Origin: Desulfocarbo indianensis
GTDB taxonomy: Bacteria > Desulfobacterota > Desulfarculia > Desulfarculales > Desulfarculaceae
Length of the DNA stretch: 64,000 nucleotides
Assembly (NCBI GenBank): GCA_001184205.1
Contig: LBMP01000001.1
Location: 539,365 to 603,364 of the forward strand
Reading direction: 5' to 3'
A model generated the notes under the pieces. That model was not told the origin of the DNA. It saw only the letters and a list, made by a program, of their open reading frames with translations, and made no database searches. Every line of letters begins with the position of its first letter. The stretch's first letter is position 1. The position numbers were made by a program, and so were the translations under genes. Positions 22,163-53,640 of this stretch are shown here, in pieces.

Positions 22163-22423
22163 AGCCCGCGTATTTCATGATGGTCGGGCGGCGTTAAACA
22201 ACGAATTATTATCCAGGGGACCCATTATGAAAAAGGCTGCGGCATTATCGAGGGAAAGCCTGTACCAGGGCCCGGCGCAGCCAGGGGCCGGCAAACAAGG
22301 CGTCTGGCAAGCGAGGGCCGCGGGCGTGGCCAAAGCTACGTCAAGGCCCGAGAGCGGCCAGCAACGCAGGATGGCGGCGGCTGGCGCGGCCGGACGCGCG
22401 GCCTTCATGAAATATGCTGGCTA
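22160..22423. mobile_element. Interspersed 260-bp element, full-length copy 2
   Basis: 264 bp between the molybdoenzyme and its Fe-S subunit. Left end TAGAGCCCGCGTATTTCATG begins at the molybdoenzyme stop codon; the right end read inward from 22423 is TAGCCAGCATATTTCATGA, an imperfect terminal inverted repeat. The interior has nested hairpins, with an apical stem CGTGGC-CAAA-GCTACG at 22325-22340 (one G-U pair) inside a GGGCC/GGCCC stem. No protein is encoded. Its right end stops 17 bases before the Fe-S subunit start, so it lies within the operon. Confidence 0.8.
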
Positions 22424-22440
22424 GAATCAGGAGCGGCGAC

Positions 22441-29422: not shown

Positions 29423-30520
29423 GTGGATCACAGCCACAGTGAACATGCCCTGACCTGGGGACGTATGCTCATGGCCCGCATGAGCCCGGAAACGCCGGCC
29501 AGCCTGGAGGGCTGTCTGGAGGGCGGCGGTTTCGGCGGCTTGATGCGGGCGGAACGCCTTTCTCCCCTGGAGATAGTGATTTTATTGCGCGAAGCCCGCC
29601 TGCGCGGGCGCGGCCCCGGCGCCGAGCCTTGCTTCCTCAAGTGGTGGCGGCTGTTGCAGGACGAGGGCCGCCCCTCCCTGGTGGTTGACGCCCGCGAGCT
29701 GGACCCGCGCTCGGACTGCGCGGCCTCGCTTTTAGAGCGCAATCCCCACGGGCTGATCGAGGCGCTGGCCATCGCGGCCCTGGCCCTGGGCTCCGGGCGG
29801 GCCTATTACCGGCCGGCGCCCCACTTGGAGCGGTTCCTCCCCTCCCTGCAGGCGGCCTTGAGCGAGGCCGGCGCCAGGGGGCTTTTGGAGGTATGCTCCC
29901 TGGCGATATCGCCCTATCCCGCCGACGGGCCGAAGGGACCCTTCCTGTCTCACAGCCTGGAGACCTGGTATCACGTCAGCCTGGCCGCTTCCCTGGGCCC
30001 GGCCTGGTACACGGCCTATGGCGCGGCCGGCCAAAGCGGCACCCGCCTGCTCACCGTGGGCGGCGACGTGGCCGAGCCCGGCCTGGTGGAGGTGCCCTGG
30101 GGCGCGCCCCTCTGGCAGGCGCTGGAGGAAGCCGGCGGAATCCAAGACATCGCCAGCCTGCGAATGCTGTGTCTGGACGACGGATTGAGCGGCTTCCTCA
30201 ACCTGGAGCGGGCGGCCACGCCCTTGGCTCCCGAGGAGCTGCTGGCCGTCGGCGTCAACCCGGCGGCGGCCACGCTATGGGCCATGGGCCAGGAGGCCGA
30301 CCCCCTGGCAGCGCTGCGCCGGGCCGTGGCCAGGTCCCTGGAGCTGGAAGACGACCCCCAAGCCCTGAAGCTGGGGAAGGAGGCGATGGCGCTGGTGGAT
30401 GACGGCGCCGGCCTGGCGGAACTAAAGGAAATTGCCGTCCGCCTGCGCCGGGCCCGCGCCTTCACCGCCTGGCCCCTGCACAGCTTTGTCATGAATTTCC
30501 CGCAACATTGCCAAGCCTAG
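29423..30520 (+). CDS. Stand-alone NuoF-like protein, paralogue C (truncated at a repeat)
   Basis: 365 residues corresponding only to the degenerate NuoF part of paralogues A and B: ARLRGRGPGAEPCFLKWWRL, VVDARELDPRSD, NPHGLIEALAIAALALG, SLETWYHVSLAASLG, LTVGGDVAEPGLVEVPWG, LCLDDGLSGFLNLERAATPLAPEELL. It ends AWPLHSFVMNFPQHCQA, at the same place where A and B have AWPL(A/Q)SSL-YF and then continue into the GltD module. The TAG stop is the first triplet of a repeat copy, so the GltD half may have been removed by an insertion or deletion. It may still be functional as a scaffold. Start GTG with GGAAGG upstream. Confidence 0.8.
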   Translation: MDHSHSEHALTWGRMLMARMSPETPASLEGCLEGGGFGGLMRAERLSPLEIVILLREARLRGRGPGAEPCFLKWWRLLQDEGRPSLVVDARELDPRSDCAASLLERNPHGLIEALAIAALALGSGRAYYRPAPHLERFLPSLQAALSEAGARGLLEVCSLAISPYPADGPKGPFLSHSLETWYHVSLAASLGPAWYTAYGAAGQSGTRLLTVGGDVAEPGLVEVPWGAPLWQALEEAGGIQDIASLRMLCLDDGLSGFLNLERAATPLAPEELLAVGVNPAAATLWAMGQEADPLAALRRAVARSLELEDDPQALKLGKEAMALVDDGAGLAELKEIAVRLRRARAFTAWPLHSFVMNFPQHCQA

Positions 30521-30705
30521 CCCGCATATTTCATGAGCCTCGCATTAAAAGGTCGCATTCCGTCACCCGGACCGGCACAGCCAGAGGCCGGCAAACAAGG
30601 CGACCGGCAAGCGAGGGCCGCAGGCGTAGCTTAAGCTACGTCGAGGCCCGAGCGCAGCCAGCAACGCAGGGCGCCGGGCCCTGGCGCAATCGGACGCCCG
30701 GCTTG
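30518..30705. mobile_element. Interspersed 260-bp element, copy 3 (right end lost)
   Basis: Left end TAGCCCGCATATTTCATGA is the best match to the consensus and starts with the stop codon of paralogue C. The interior matches copies 2 and 7 (GGCCGGCAAACAAGGCG, GCGAGGGCCGCAGG) with a fully palindromic apical stem CGTAGC-TTAA-GCTACG at 30625-30640, and shares GGTCGCATTC-GTCACCCGG with copy 5. The right inverted repeat is not recognisable after CGGACGCCCGG. Confidence 0.75.
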
Positions 30706-42913: not shown

Positions 42914-43503
42914 AAGAGCTGGCGCGCTTCATGTTCGAGGCGGGCATGCTGAAAAAAATGCGCCGCAGCGGGTATCCCTTTTTGGGCTCGGGCGGCGAGA
43001 GCGTGGCCGACCATTGCTTCCGGGCCGCGCTTCTGGGCTATCAGCTGGCCCTGGCCTCCGACGGCCTGGACGCGCCCCGGGTGGCGCTCATGCTCCTGCA
43101 TCATGATCTGGCCGAAACCCGCACCGGCGACCTGAACTACGTGCACAAGCGCTATTCGGAAGCCAAAGAGGACAAGGCGCTGCGCCACCAGGCGCGCAAC
43201 CTGCCGCCGGCGGTGGCGGCCAGCATGCTGGAGCTGACCGCCGAGTTCAACGCCAAGGAAACGCCCGAGTCCCGGCTGGCCCACGACGCGGACCAGCTGG
43301 ATCTCCTGATAGAGCTGAAGGAGCAAAAGGACCTGAACAACCCCTACGCCTCGGCCTGGATTCATTACGCCCTGAAGCGCCTGGAGACCGAACCGGGCAA
43401 GGCCCTGGCCCGGGAGATCATGGCCACCGACTGGACCGATTGGTGGTTCGAAAAGCGCGACGATTGGTGGGCGCCCAACTGCCATCCGCCGGAGGACGAC
43501 TAG
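42910..43503 (+). CDS. HD-domain nucleotidase-like phosphohydrolase
   Basis: 197 residues. HD superfamily, closest in pattern to YfbR-type 5'-deoxynucleotidases: ESVADHCFRAALLGYQLAL, LMLLHHDLAETRTGDLN (HD pair) and AHDADQLDLLIEL (distal Asp). Starts GTG at 42910, overlapping the FmdE-like stop, so the two are co-translated. It ends in TAG, which is also the first triplet of a repeat copy. Confidence 0.85.
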   Translation: MKELARFMFEAGMLKKMRRSGYPFLGSGGESVADHCFRAALLGYQLALASDGLDAPRVALMLLHHDLAETRTGDLNYVHKRYSEAKEDKALRHQARNLPPAVAASMLELTAEFNAKETPESRLAHDADQLDLLIELKEQKDLNNPYASAWIHYALKRLETEPGKALAREIMATDWTDWWFEKRDDWWAPNCHPPEDD

Positions 43504-43636
43504 CCCGCGTATTTCTTGATGGCAGGGTGGTCCTGGCGGGTTTGTCGATCATGGCGGGCTGATTCAAAAACGAGCCTCTTACTCGGAGGTCGCGATTTGT
43601 CACCCCAACCGGCGCGGCCGGTCGCCCGAGCGGCTA
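43501..43636. repeat. Interspersed 260-bp element, shortened copy 4
   Basis: 136 bp that exactly fill the gap between the HD gene stop and the stop of the converging broken MBL gene. Left end TAGCCCGCGTATTTCTTGATG; body GGGTGGTC...GTTTGTCGATCATGG matches copies 5 and 6; right end read inward TAGCCGCTCGGGCG. Both ends supply TAG stops. The central hairpin region is deleted. Confidence 0.75.
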
Positions 43637-44259: not shown

Positions 44260-44775
44260 ATGAGCCATCGTTTCGCCTTGATCCTGGCCCTGCTCACGGC
44301 CCTGGCCCTGGCCGCGCCGGCCGCGGCTCTGGTAAAAACCGGGGCCCCGCTTCCCTCGCTCACCCTGCCCGGCCTAGACGGCCAAAGCCACGACCTGGGG
44401 GCCCTGGCCAAGGACAAGGTGGCGGTGGTGGTGTACTGGTCGGTTTCCTGCCCCCTCTGCCGCAAGCAAATGCCCGAATTCGTGGCCCTTAACAAGCGGC
44501 TGGCCGGCAACGCCTTTGCCATGCTCATGATAAACAGCGACGGCCCGGCCATGAAGCCCGCCGCCCAGGCCTATGCCGAGCAATACAACCTGCCCGGCCC
44601 CATTCTATTGGACGTCGGCGCGGGCGACAGCATGCCCTTCGGCCAAAAGATGGATTTGATCGCCACCCCCACGGTGCTGGTCTACGACCAGAAGGGGGTG
44701 CTGGTGCACGCCCAGGAGCTAAAAGTGGACCTCCCCCAGCTTAACCAGGCGGTGGAAAAGGCCCTCGTACACTAG
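44260..44775 (+). CDS. TlpA/ResA-like thioredoxin-fold protein
   Basis: 171 residues with a signal peptide or anchor (RFALILALLTALALAAPAAALVK), then a redoxin fold: TGAPLPSLTLPGLDGQSHDLGAL, active site VYWSVSCPLCRKQMPEF (CPLC), and cis-Pro loop LIATPTVLVYDQKG. Probably a periplasmic thiol-disulfide reductase that could serve cytochrome c assembly, whose ResB and CcsA genes are a few kb away. Confidence 0.87.
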   Translation: MSHRFALILALLTALALAAPAAALVKTGAPLPSLTLPGLDGQSHDLGALAKDKVAVVVYWSVSCPLCRKQMPEFVALNKRLAGNAFAMLMINSDGPAMKPAAQAYAEQYNLPGPILLDVGAGDSMPFGQKMDLIATPTVLVYDQKGVLVHAQELKVDLPQLNQAVEKALVH

Positions 44776-44822: not shown

Positions 44823-45082
44823 TAGCCCGGAAATTTCATGAGGGTTGGGTGGTCGTTAGCGGACTTGTCGATCAGGATGGGCTGATAAAAGAACAAGCCT
44901 CGTATTCGAAGGTCGCATTCTGTCACCCGGACCGGCACAGCCAGTTGGCCGCCGCCAAGGCGACCGGCCAGCCAAGGAGGCAGGTGTAGTTGTAACTACA
45001 GCGACGACTTGGCGCAGGCGGCAACGCAGGCGGCGGGCAACCGGCGCAGCCGGACGCCCGACCCTCATGAAATTCCGGGCCA
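44823..45082. mobile_element. Interspersed 260-bp element, full-length copy 5
   Basis: 260 bp with the clearest terminal inverted repeats: TAGCCCGGAAATTTCATGAG at the left and, read inward from the right, TGGCCCGGAATTTCATGAGG, continuing to GGGT-GGG on both sides (about 25 bases). Interior: stem GCCAAG (44971-44976)/CTTGGC (45008-45013) enclosing TGTAGTT-GT-AACTACA (44985-45000). These stems replace GGGCC/GGCCC and CGTAGC/GCTACG of copies 2, 3 and 7 with compensating changes. This copy is not at a stop codon; it lies 47 bases after the redoxin gene and 28 before the next gene. Confidence 0.85.
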
Positions 45083-51461: not shown

Positions 51462-52289
51462 TTGGAAGCTATATCCAACACCATGTTGGTGGCCGTCACC
51501 TTCGCCTATCTGGGCGTCAGCGTGCTCTATCTGTGCAACATGGTTTTCAAGCGCGGTTTTTTCGGCCGGGCCGCCACCATCTTCACCTGGCTCACCCTGG
51601 CCGCGCACACCACCGCCATCATCCTGCGCTGGGTGGCGTCCTACGAGCAGGGCATCGGCCACGCCCCGTTTTCCAACCTGTTCGAGTCGCTGGTATTCTT
51701 CGGCTGGACCATCGCGGTGATCTATCTCTTCATCGAGGGCAAGACCAGGCTCAAGCAGATCGGGGCCTTTGCCATACCCCTGGCCTTCTTCGCCATGCTT
51801 TACGCGCTCAAGCTGGATCCGGGCATCAAGCCGCTCATGCCGGCGCTCAAGTCCAACTGGCTCATCGCCCACGTCATCACCTGCTTTTTGGGCTACGCCG
51901 GGTTCGCCGTCTCCGCGGCCTTGAGCTTCATGTATCTGCTGACCAAGCAGGAGCAGACCGCCGGCTCCCGCCGGGCGCTCACCCTGGACCAGCTCATCTA
52001 CGAAACCGTGGTGGTGGGGTTCATCCTCCTGACCGCCGGCATCGTCACCGGCAGCATCTGGGCCAACAGCGCCTGGGGAACCTATTGGCAATGGGACCCC
52101 AAGGAGACATGGTCCCTGATCACCTGGCTGGTGTACGCCGCGCTTTTGCACAGCCGCTACATGCGGGGCTGGCAGGGCAGGCGCCTGGCCTGGTTTTCCC
52201 TGATAGGCTTCGGCTGCGTCCTGTTCACCTACTTCGGGGTCAACCTGCTTTTAAGCGGCCTGCATTCCTACGCCACCGGCAAGACCTAG
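51462..52289 (+). CDS. ccsA: Cytochrome c assembly protein CcsA/ResC
   Basis: 275 residues, about eight membrane helices, with the haem-handling WWD motif SIWANSAWGTYWQWDPKETWSLITWLVYAALLHSR and flanking histidines (LAAHTTAIIL; IAHVITCFLGYAG). Forms the haem-transport complex with ResB, which ends three bases upstream. TTG start at 51462. Its TAG stop is the first triplet of repeat copy 6. Confidence 0.95.
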   Translation: MEAISNTMLVAVTFAYLGVSVLYLCNMVFKRGFFGRAATIFTWLTLAAHTTAIILRWVASYEQGIGHAPFSNLFESLVFFGWTIAVIYLFIEGKTRLKQIGAFAIPLAFFAMLYALKLDPGIKPLMPALKSNWLIAHVITCFLGYAGFAVSAALSFMYLLTKQEQTAGSRRALTLDQLIYETVVVGFILLTAGIVTGSIWANSAWGTYWQWDPKETWSLITWLVYAALLHSRYMRGWQGRRLAWFSLIGFGCVLFTYFGVNLLLSGLHSYATGKT

Positions 52290-52542
52290 CCCGCATGTTT
52301 CATGAGGATTGGGTGGTCGTCAGCGGGTTTGCCGATCATGGTGAGCTGATAAAAGAACAAGGCTCGTATGCAAAGGCCGCGTTCCGTCGCCCGGACCGGC
52401 GCGGCCAGTTGGCCGCCGCCAAGGCGACCGGCCAGCCAAGGAGGCAGGTGCAGGCGTAACTTCAGCGACGACTTGGCGCGGCCGGCAACGCAGCGTGCCG
52501 GGCCCTGGCGCAGGCGGACGCCCGCCCCAAAAAGGCGGGCTA
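52287..52542. mobile_element. Interspersed 260-bp element, full-length copy 6
   Basis: 256 bp that fill the space between the stop codons of ccsA and a converging small gene; TAG at each end is the stop of each gene. CTAG flanks the element at both sides, as a 4-bp target duplication would. Left end TAGCCCGCATGTTTCATGAG; the right end is a GCCCGCC/GGCGGGC hairpin with loop CCAAAAA. Body is close to copy 5 (GATAAAAGAACAAG, GGCCGCCGCCAAGGCGACC, GCCAAG/CTTGGC stem at 52435 and 52472); the apical hairpin is weaker. Confidence 0.82.
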
Positions 52543-52834: not shown

Positions 52835-53470
52835 ATGAAGATTCTACAGATGCTGGTGGGGCAGATGGCGGTTTTCGCCTATGTGTTGGGCTGTGAGCAA
52901 ACCGGCCAGGCCCTGGTGATAGACCCGGCCGGCAACGAGGACCGCATAAAGGCCGAGGCCGAAAAGAACGGCTTCACCATCGTCAAGATCGTCAACACCC
53001 ACGGCCACCCGGACCACACCTGCGGCAACGCCCGCCTCAAGGAGCTGACCGGCGCCCCCATCGTGGTGCACCAGGACGACGCCCAGGACATGATAAGCCC
53101 CCACGCCCAGGATTTCGCCCGCATGCTGGGCTGCGCCGGCACCCCGCCGGCGGACGAAACCGTGAGCGAGGGCGACCACATCAAGGCGGGCCAGGAAGTA
53201 GACCTCACCGTGATCCACACCCCCGGCCACACCCCGGGCTGTATTTGTCTTTACACGCCGGGCCACGTATTCACCGGCGACACCCTTTTCGTGGGCGGGG
53301 TGGGGCGCACCGATCTGCCCGGCGGCTCCTGGCAGATCATGGCCGATTCCATAGCCAAGCGCATCATGACCCTGCCCGACGAAACCGTGGTATGGCCGGG
53401 CCACCACTACGGGCCCGCGCCCAAGTCCACCGTAAAACAAGAGCGCGACAGCAATCCCTTTCTCCGCTAG
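52835..53470 (+). CDS. Glyoxalase II-like MBL-fold hydrolase
   Basis: 211 residues, full metallo-beta-lactamase fold: VNTHGHPDHTCGNARL (HxHxDH), VIHTPGHTPGCICL, FTGDTLFVGGVGRTDLPGGS and VWPGHHYGPAPKSTV, which together give all metal ligands of the hydroxyacylglutathione-hydrolase-like group. Cytosolic. ATG at 52835, weak ribosome site. Its TAG stop is the start of repeat copy 7. Confidence 0.92.
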   Translation: MKILQMLVGQMAVFAYVLGCEQTGQALVIDPAGNEDRIKAEAEKNGFTIVKIVNTHGHPDHTCGNARLKELTGAPIVVHQDDAQDMISPHAQDFARMLGCAGTPPADETVSEGDHIKAGQEVDLTVIHTPGHTPGCICLYTPGHVFTGDTLFVGGVGRTDLPGGSWQIMADSIAKRIMTLPDETVVWPGHHYGPAPKSTVKQERDSNPFLR

Positions 53471-53640
53471 ACGGCATATTTCAGGAGGGACGGTTCGCAC
53501 TCGGGCCCGGCACAGCCAGCCGCCGGCAGACAAGGCGTCTGGCAAGCGAGGGCCGCAGGCGTAGCCAAAGCTACGTCAAGGCCCGAGAGCGGCCAGCAAC
53601 GCAGGATGCCGCTGGCTGGCGCAGCCGGCCGGCGGCGGCG
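53468..53640. mobile_element. Interspersed 260-bp element, copy 7 (right end degraded)
   Basis: Left end TAGACGGCATATTTCAGGAG starts with the upstream gene's stop codon. The body is nearly identical to copy 2 over GACAAGGCGTCTGGCAAGCG and AAAGCTACGTCAAGGCCCGA. Stems: CGTAGC-CAAA-GCTACG (53560-53575), GGGCC (53550-53554)/GGCCC (53580-53584), and an outer CAGCCAGC/GCTGGCTG. The right inverted repeat is not recognisable. Confidence 0.78.

Follow-up and report, generated by a model that had tools for sequence, protein, structure and literature searches.

Does the short repeated element at 44823-45082, in a stretch of 64,000 nucleotides from Desulfocarbo indianensis (the window), contain hairpins that are kept by selection on a folded molecule, or do the matching arms reflect palindrome ancestry alone? 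A preliminary description of the window had reported stems whose pairing was kept between copies while their sequence changed, and proposed selection on folded RNA or cruciform DNA and not only on the ends. The compensatory changes in the hairpins are real and statistically supported. The explanation preferred here, which is considered likely but far from certain, is that the element carries a conserved hairpin module of ~125 nt that operates as one folded strand, most likely RNA from the + strand, and is dispersed through the genome at gene ends, with transcription and function being inferred. The element and the other copies in the window are as follows.

44823..45082, + strand: full MITE-like element of subfamily A, 258 bp, without an open reading frame of its own
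44825..44849, + strand: its left terminal inverted repeat, GCCCGGAAATTTCATGAGGGTTGGG, from an inverted-repeat search
45057..45080, - strand: its right terminal inverted repeat, from the same search
22163..22424, + strand: subfamily B element with core 22267-22398
30518..30700, + strand: element with a shortened left part and a B-type core, 30567-30698
43501..43629, + strand: core-less copy with only the terminal repeat and left part, the halves of helix P1 being joined as CCGGCGCGGCCGG
52287..52538, + strand: subfamily A element with a decayed apical stem, core 52391-52522
53468..53633, + strand: core 53502-53633 of B type, its left terminal repeat degraded and its right one missing

The element at 44823-45082 lies between a gene at 44260-44775, which we take to be thioredoxin-like, and a gene from 45111 that presumably resembles siroheme/precorrin-2 dehydrogenase. 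It is flanked by TA at 44823-44824 on the left and by CA, a decayed TA, at 45081-45082 on the right. The terminal inverted repeat of the family is GCCCGCATATTTCAYGA, with TA at the ends, and the inverted-repeat ends read GCCCGGAAATTTCATGAGGG... The 5.1 Mb genome holds about 60 copies (56 BLAST matches to the 44823-45082 element, with copies elsewhere in it that are 93% and 92% identical), divided into subfamilies A and B with ends and interior in common, and a genome-wide search for the terminal repeat gave 78 sites compared with 0 in the reversed control. TA occurs at both ends in 41 of 91 two-ended copies from this and the sister genus and at the right end in most of the others, and the outermost bases of complete copies are YTA...TAR, which together indicate the behaviour of a TA-duplicating MITE. 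The family also satisfies the MITE criteria in being short, non-coding, multicopy, bounded by terminal inverted repeats and associated with a target-site duplication. The TA duplication and the YTAR target, and only these features, are consistent with the IS630/Tc1-mariner type. No recognised transposase gene of an autonomous partner was detected in the two terminal-repeat-pair regions examined, one spanning a wide pair and one beside a tight pair, and searches of phage and virus contigs and plasmids returned no match.

The core-less copy 43501-43629 is consistent with loss of the hairpin by slippage between the 9-bp repeats GGCRCAGCC on either side of it, and several other core-less copies are present in the genome (L025-L030). 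The genes upstream of 43501 and 52287 take their stop codon from the element's own TAG, and relatives of the gene upstream of 52287 terminate in TAA without an element. Divergence at 52287 was too great for a base-exact empty site to be defined, and the empty-site comparison at 44824 was uninformative because the upstream gene differs in the same-genus relative.

Inside the terminal repeats, the following parts of the hairpin core were delimited.

44932..45053, + strand: structured hairpin core of 122 nt (covariance-model match 44927-45058, 124 bits)
44932..44936, + strand: 5' side of P1, CCGGC, pairing with GCCGG at 45049-45053 and followed by a 3x3 internal loop
44940..44956, + strand: 5' side of P2, pairing with 45029-45045; the most covarying helix, with double changes in 12 of 17 pairs
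44960..44968, + strand: 5' side of P3, GCG.CCGGC, pairing with 45017-45027, with near-invariant AAG and CAA on its flanks
44971..44976, + strand: enclosing stem GCCAAG of subfamily A, pairing with CTTGGC at 45008-45013
44984..44991, + strand: 5' side of the apical stem, GTGTAGTT, pairing with AACTACA at 44994-45000

Alignment A1 of 57 copies gives one long imperfect hairpin of 48 pairs, running from P1 (CCGGC/GCCGG) through the 3x3 loop, P2 (17 pairs), AAG/A, P3 (GCG-CYGGC/GCCRG-CAA-CGC), AA/GCA and P4 to the apical stem. Four cores of the window fold at z -3.2 to -5.6 relative to shuffles, and core 52391-52522, the apical stem of which is broken (GTGCAGG/AACTTC), folds no better than its shuffles (z -0.1).

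The apical stems first reported were all recovered at their positions, namely (G)CGTAGC/GCTACG in copies 3 and 7 (cores 30567-30698 and 53502-53633), CGTGGC/GCTACG with one G-U in copy 2 (22267-22398), and TGTAGTT/AACTACA in copy 5, where the arms occupy 44985-44991 and 44994-45000 within 44927-45058. The enclosing stems that had been set beside them as a further instance of kept pairing, GGGCC/GGCCC in subfamily B and GCCAAG/CTTGGC in subfamily A, are both present but do not compensate base for base. GCCAAG/CTTGGC corresponds to A1 columns 45-50/85-90 and GGGCC/GGCCC to columns 49-53/82-86, and a tandem G.A mismatch is found at columns 47-48/87-88 in B and at 51-52/83-84 in A. The different registers and the relocated mismatch indicate that the enclosing stem is a rearranged helix rather than a case of simple compensation. 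In A1 the tandem G.A shifts by four positions between B and A and the flanking helix re-forms.

Paired cells account for 86.5% across the 57 copies, compared with 79.9% in shuffles and 22-46% when the partners were slid, and double changes were observed at 25 pairs versus 14.7 in shuffles, with none of 500 column shuffles reaching any observed value. To allow for phylogeny, 143 distinct copies were tested against an R-scape-like null in which parsimony events were re-placed at random columns on the tree; covariation at E<0.05 was obtained for 8 of 48 structural pairs and 0 of 8,208 other column pairs. An independent set of 31 copies assigned to Geothermobacter and close relatives, aligned by sequence only, gave 3 of 32 structural pairs and 0 of 9,148 others. 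A covariation test of the kind that the preliminary description proposed is significant, under phylogenetic nulls, at structural pairs only.

Which kind of molecule is folded can be approached from the difference between the two strands. The + strand is the better folder in 132 of the 143 near copies (mean -76.0 vs -68.2 kcal/mol), in 134 of the 143 when DNA parameters are used, and in 87 of 93 distant copies. Of the changes away from Watson-Crick pairs, 152 produced G-U and 93 produced A-C (p 2e-4). The better folding of the + strand and the excess of G-U over A-C point to a single folded strand, RNA or single-stranded DNA, as the object of selection, and disfavour a cruciform, which would weigh both strands equally.

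Unpaired positions are conserved as well. On a 190-copy tree A32, G54 and A81 did not change on any branch and columns 31, 33, 44, 91, 99, 100 and 101 changed at most 5 times each, compared with about 36 changes on terminal branches alone in flank columns. CAAGGCG was present in 27 and CAACGCAG in 23 of 30 distant matches that had been found without requiring either motif (shuffles 0.5 and 0.1). Covariation in two sets, invariant unpaired bases and the presence of the fold where the terminal repeats differ or are absent support selection on the fold beyond the ends, as originally proposed; of the two molecules named in that proposal, the strand asymmetry favours a folded single strand over cruciform DNA. 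Palindrome ancestry alone, given there as what would refute the proposal, is unable to account for invariant loops and conserved mismatches. Terminal branches carry about 189 pair-breaking and 72 compensated changes, versus about 50 and 52 on internal branches, which suggests that many copies decay after insertion, as 52391 did.

The core occurs in three ways, in a TA-duplicating frame, in a frame with 8-10-bp target duplications, and alone. The first frame, with ends reading TA followed by GCCCGCATWTYTCAYSA, can carry the core in Desulfarculaceae, in another family (f31) and in Thermoanaerobaculia. The second, with ends CGTAAAAAGTC/GACTTTTTACGAAGCCGTC, carries it in Desulfobacterales-like genomes, where direct repeats of 8-10 bp begin exactly at the right end; repeats of at least 7 bp were found in 6 of 14 cases compared with 1% of mismatched pairs. 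Loci with this second frame (CGTAAAAAGTC...GACTTTTTACGAAGCCGTC) are L098, L107, L116, L121, L151, L159 and L187. About half of the copies in the sister genus are solo, without a recognisable frame, and no target duplications above chance were detected at solo cores.

Copies are preferentially located where genes end. They lie between convergent genes in 46 cases and between divergent genes in 7 (p 4e-8), and for solo copies the counts are 30 and 0. Copies with terminal inverted repeats that lie between co-directional genes are in sense orientation at 28:10 (p 0.005), and solo copies in such pairs have no sense bias (11:13). The 3' end of the solo core is within 12 nt of the opposing gene's stop codon in 34 of 44 cases, whereas its start is that near the left gene's stop in only 1 of 42 (p 7e-14), and distant copies display the same asymmetry (20 of 34 vs 2 of 24). 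Of the 33 stops abutted by solo cores, 32 read TAG or TAA, compared with 231 of 312 for other nearby genes (p 0.002), and TGA accounts for 1 of 33 abutted stops versus 81 of 312 others. The gene calls were heuristic, relying on GC by codon position, so individual cases may err, but the asymmetry is too large to be explained in this way. In the MITE form, too, the terminal repeats lie next to stops, with left distances clustering at 99-105 and right distances at 23.

Some copies look as if they were inherited between species. At one gene end occupied in two species (L307/L166), where the neighbour protein is about 75% identical, the cores are 94% identical and mutually rank 1 of 202, and at a second shared gene end (L283/L161/L124) the copies match one another best, or nearly so. 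These cross-species matches indicate that copies can persist through speciation, the left intergenic sequence being no longer alignable. At about ten further gene ends shared between species the core types are unrelated, suggesting repeated insertion at preferred ends, or hot spots, and these sites were left out of the evidence for constraint. Unrelated types were seen at L032/L061/L299, L003/L286, L006/L177, L312/L064/L016 and others.

The core, relatives of which are found at gene ends in various sulfate- and metal-reducing bacteria, probably works as a folded RNA (or single-stranded DNA) and is also mobile between genome sites, its transcription and function again being inferred. Transposases acting in trans would copy the module, through either the terminal repeats of a carrier MITE or the hairpin itself, and the module would survive because a gene stays intact when the TA within its stop codon is the point of insertion. 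As part of a 3' untranslated RNA it might then serve, as ERIC or NEMIS hairpins do, in processing, in blocking decay or in termination. Any one copy may last long enough to pass from species to species and decay afterwards. A host function of the core has not been shown and is inferred only by analogy with the ERIC and NEMIS hairpins.

That framed copies tend to lie in sense between co-directional genes (28:10) favours RNA, and the solo antisense stop-codon rule with the missing sense bias (11:13) favours insertion by a mechanism that recognises a single folded strand. A solo 3' end abutting the antisense stop of the right-hand gene is not predicted by an RNA role and might be predicted by an insertion-site rule, and single-stranded DNA also tolerates G.A pairs and G-T wobbles, which counts against the RNA reading. 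It is possible, though rather unlikely, that the hairpin is instead a folded single-stranded DNA substrate of a recombinase or transposase, comparable to attC sites or IS200/IS605 ends, with covariation arising from selection for the mobility of source copies. Preference for a single strand (132/143 and 87/93), solo copies without target duplication, and the fixed solo orientation with the 3' end at a TA-containing stop (34/44 vs 1/42; TGA 1/33 vs 81/312) all fit such a substrate, and the order of P1, an unpaired spacer and P2 recalls attC architecture. However, neither this genome nor any of three relatives rich in cores, of which one is a single-contig genome, has a Y1 transposase (PF01797), P1 lacks the AAC/GTT of attC boxes, copies are dispersed rather than arrayed, and orthologous copies are kept at high core identity. 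The RNA role and the one-strand insertion mechanism could both be true, at different stages.

A protein-bound cruciform or double-stranded palindrome in which the two strands matter alike would suit a long, near-perfect hairpin between convergent genes, where REP/BIME sites for gyrase or IHF also lie, but is very unlikely given the strand asymmetry in stability and in G-U over A-C; moreover the tandem G.A and the conserved G-U turn into C.T and A.C on the other strand. Palindrome ancestry with quasi-palindrome correction, in which template switching across the hairpin matches the arms without selection, could draw on some adjacent multi-base changes and on the core-less copies, which resemble slippage across the hairpin between the GGCRCAGCC repeats. 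It is nevertheless highly improbable, since correction would erase mismatches, whereas conservation extends to the internal loops, the tandem G.A and the bulges, where the bases vary least of all, and two separate alignments covary significantly only at structural pairs. That the repeats are ordinary REP/REPIN units, dispersed by a RAYT (Y1) transposase of the same genome, can scarcely be credited: copy number, extragenic location, palindromy and convergent gene ends agree with REP placement (PMC3733652), but the unit is a multi-helix fold of ~125 nt, not a 20-40 nt hairpin tagged with GTAG or CGTC, and PF01797 is absent from G000 (the present genome), G008, G010 and G012.

The preferred reading, a dispersed module working as one folded strand, can also be compared with known repeats. 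ERIC/IRU elements are imperfect, non-autonomous, intergenic hairpins with a TA target that are often transcribed. They are 127 bp long and MITE-like (PMC2759123). The core has about the same hairpin length but also occurs in other frames and alone, and has no sequence homology to them; membership was rejected because the element has no sequence match in E. coli (5,426 genomes). NEMIS/Correia and other TA-duplicating IS630/Tc1-like MITEs carry terminal inverted repeats with TA at both ends and form a hairpin in transcripts. The element resembles them in its terminal inverted repeats and TA ends, but the termini differ, no autonomous partner was found, and the core here is also common to a frame making 8-10-bp duplications. 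The GTAG and CGTC families of REP/REPIN are similarly placed at convergent gene ends (PMC3733652) and share with the core high copy number, extragenic location and enrichment between convergent genes and beside stop codons; the core differs in its ~125 nt, its elaborate internal loops, and the lack of a foot tag and a resident Y1 transposase. REP/RAYT membership was rejected for want of a 20-40 nt hairpin with a GTAG/CGTC foot and of a Y1 transposase in the four genomes named above, and integron attC membership because the foot is CCGGC/GCCGG instead of RYYYAAC/GTTRRRY boxes.

The closest precedent is a set of 24 'predicted short RNA elements' in the Geobacter metallireducens genome paper, intergenic and multicopy with the central palindrome GRCGTAGCGCTGCTACGCC, which were also reported in other Geobacter and in Desulfotalea (Aklujkar et al. 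2009, PMC2700814, available in part). The palindrome closely matches the apical helix described here (GGCGTAGC..GCTACGYC), and near-identical apical helices occur among the present copies, such as GGCGTAGCAGCGCTACGCC in L125 and L168. From the close match of the apical helices, the taxon and the spread, the class census covering that group, it is inferred that the 24-member family very probably belongs within this hairpin family. As far as the available part of the published report goes, it offers a BLAST alignment of the elements without a covariation model (PMC2700814), and the 2009 guess of short RNA elements now becomes testable. Rfam 15 returned nothing credible for the core at gathering or relaxed thresholds. 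The covariance-supported fold, its spread, the several mini-transposon frames and the oriented stop-codon placement are new as far as Rfam and literature searches show.

Covariance model R1 counted 40 cores in this genome, where only strong ones were included, and 59-111 per genome in four sister-genus genomes. Full-length R1 matches were obtained in 44 of 395 genomes of the phylum, from 28 genera and including families far from that of the host, and none in most others. Distant copies retain AAGGCG, the apical helix GTA(G/C)...(G/C)TAC and AACGCAG, while their stems are completely different. With the broader model R2 the core was detected in the class around G296, which its sequences place as that of Geothermobacter, where 84 of 117 genomes and 49 of 55 genera have it; as Geothermobacter copies were included in building it, matches in that genus, but not in others, are by construction. 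When named genomes were scanned by pattern, most of the matches were in Deltaproteobacteria, and Thermoanaerobaculia, Omnitrophica and Clostridia also yielded folded candidates. The hairpins resembling the core in hosts of other phyla are L134, L152 and L154 (gut Clostridia MAGs), L142 (Omnitrophica) and L148, L157 and L158 (Thermoanaerobaculia). These candidates are few and tentative, having been chosen by loop motif pattern and R1 score, and neither binning contamination nor transfer is excluded.

Only tentatively, and as a claim that is more doubtful than supported, can one ancient folded domain be proposed (in Desulfobacterota, perhaps Acidobacteriota and Clostridia) that was adopted by unrelated mini-transposons, one frame duplicating TA and the other 8-10 bp, and also inserts alone exactly at stop codons in a fixed orientation. 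If true, this would be a mobile RNA/DNA module of a new type, directed by its hairpin and having a conserved partner in the host or in mobility. Repeats dispersed in bacterial genomes are commonly regarded as parasites or short REP palindromes; in contrast, this is a long, multi-helix, strand-specific fold preserved by compensatory change across much of a phylum, absent from Rfam and reaching about 110 copies in a genome. It raises the question of why different mini-transposons share one fold parked at stop codons, and provides a ready covariance model for annotating the genomes of Geobacter, Desulfuromonas and sulfate reducers. Tandem arrays of at least three cores were also observed (L094, L144, G334:C2:79614-80416 and G460:C1:2486179-2486583), their hosts belonging to the group around Geothermobacter (G296, G334) and to another family of its class (G460).
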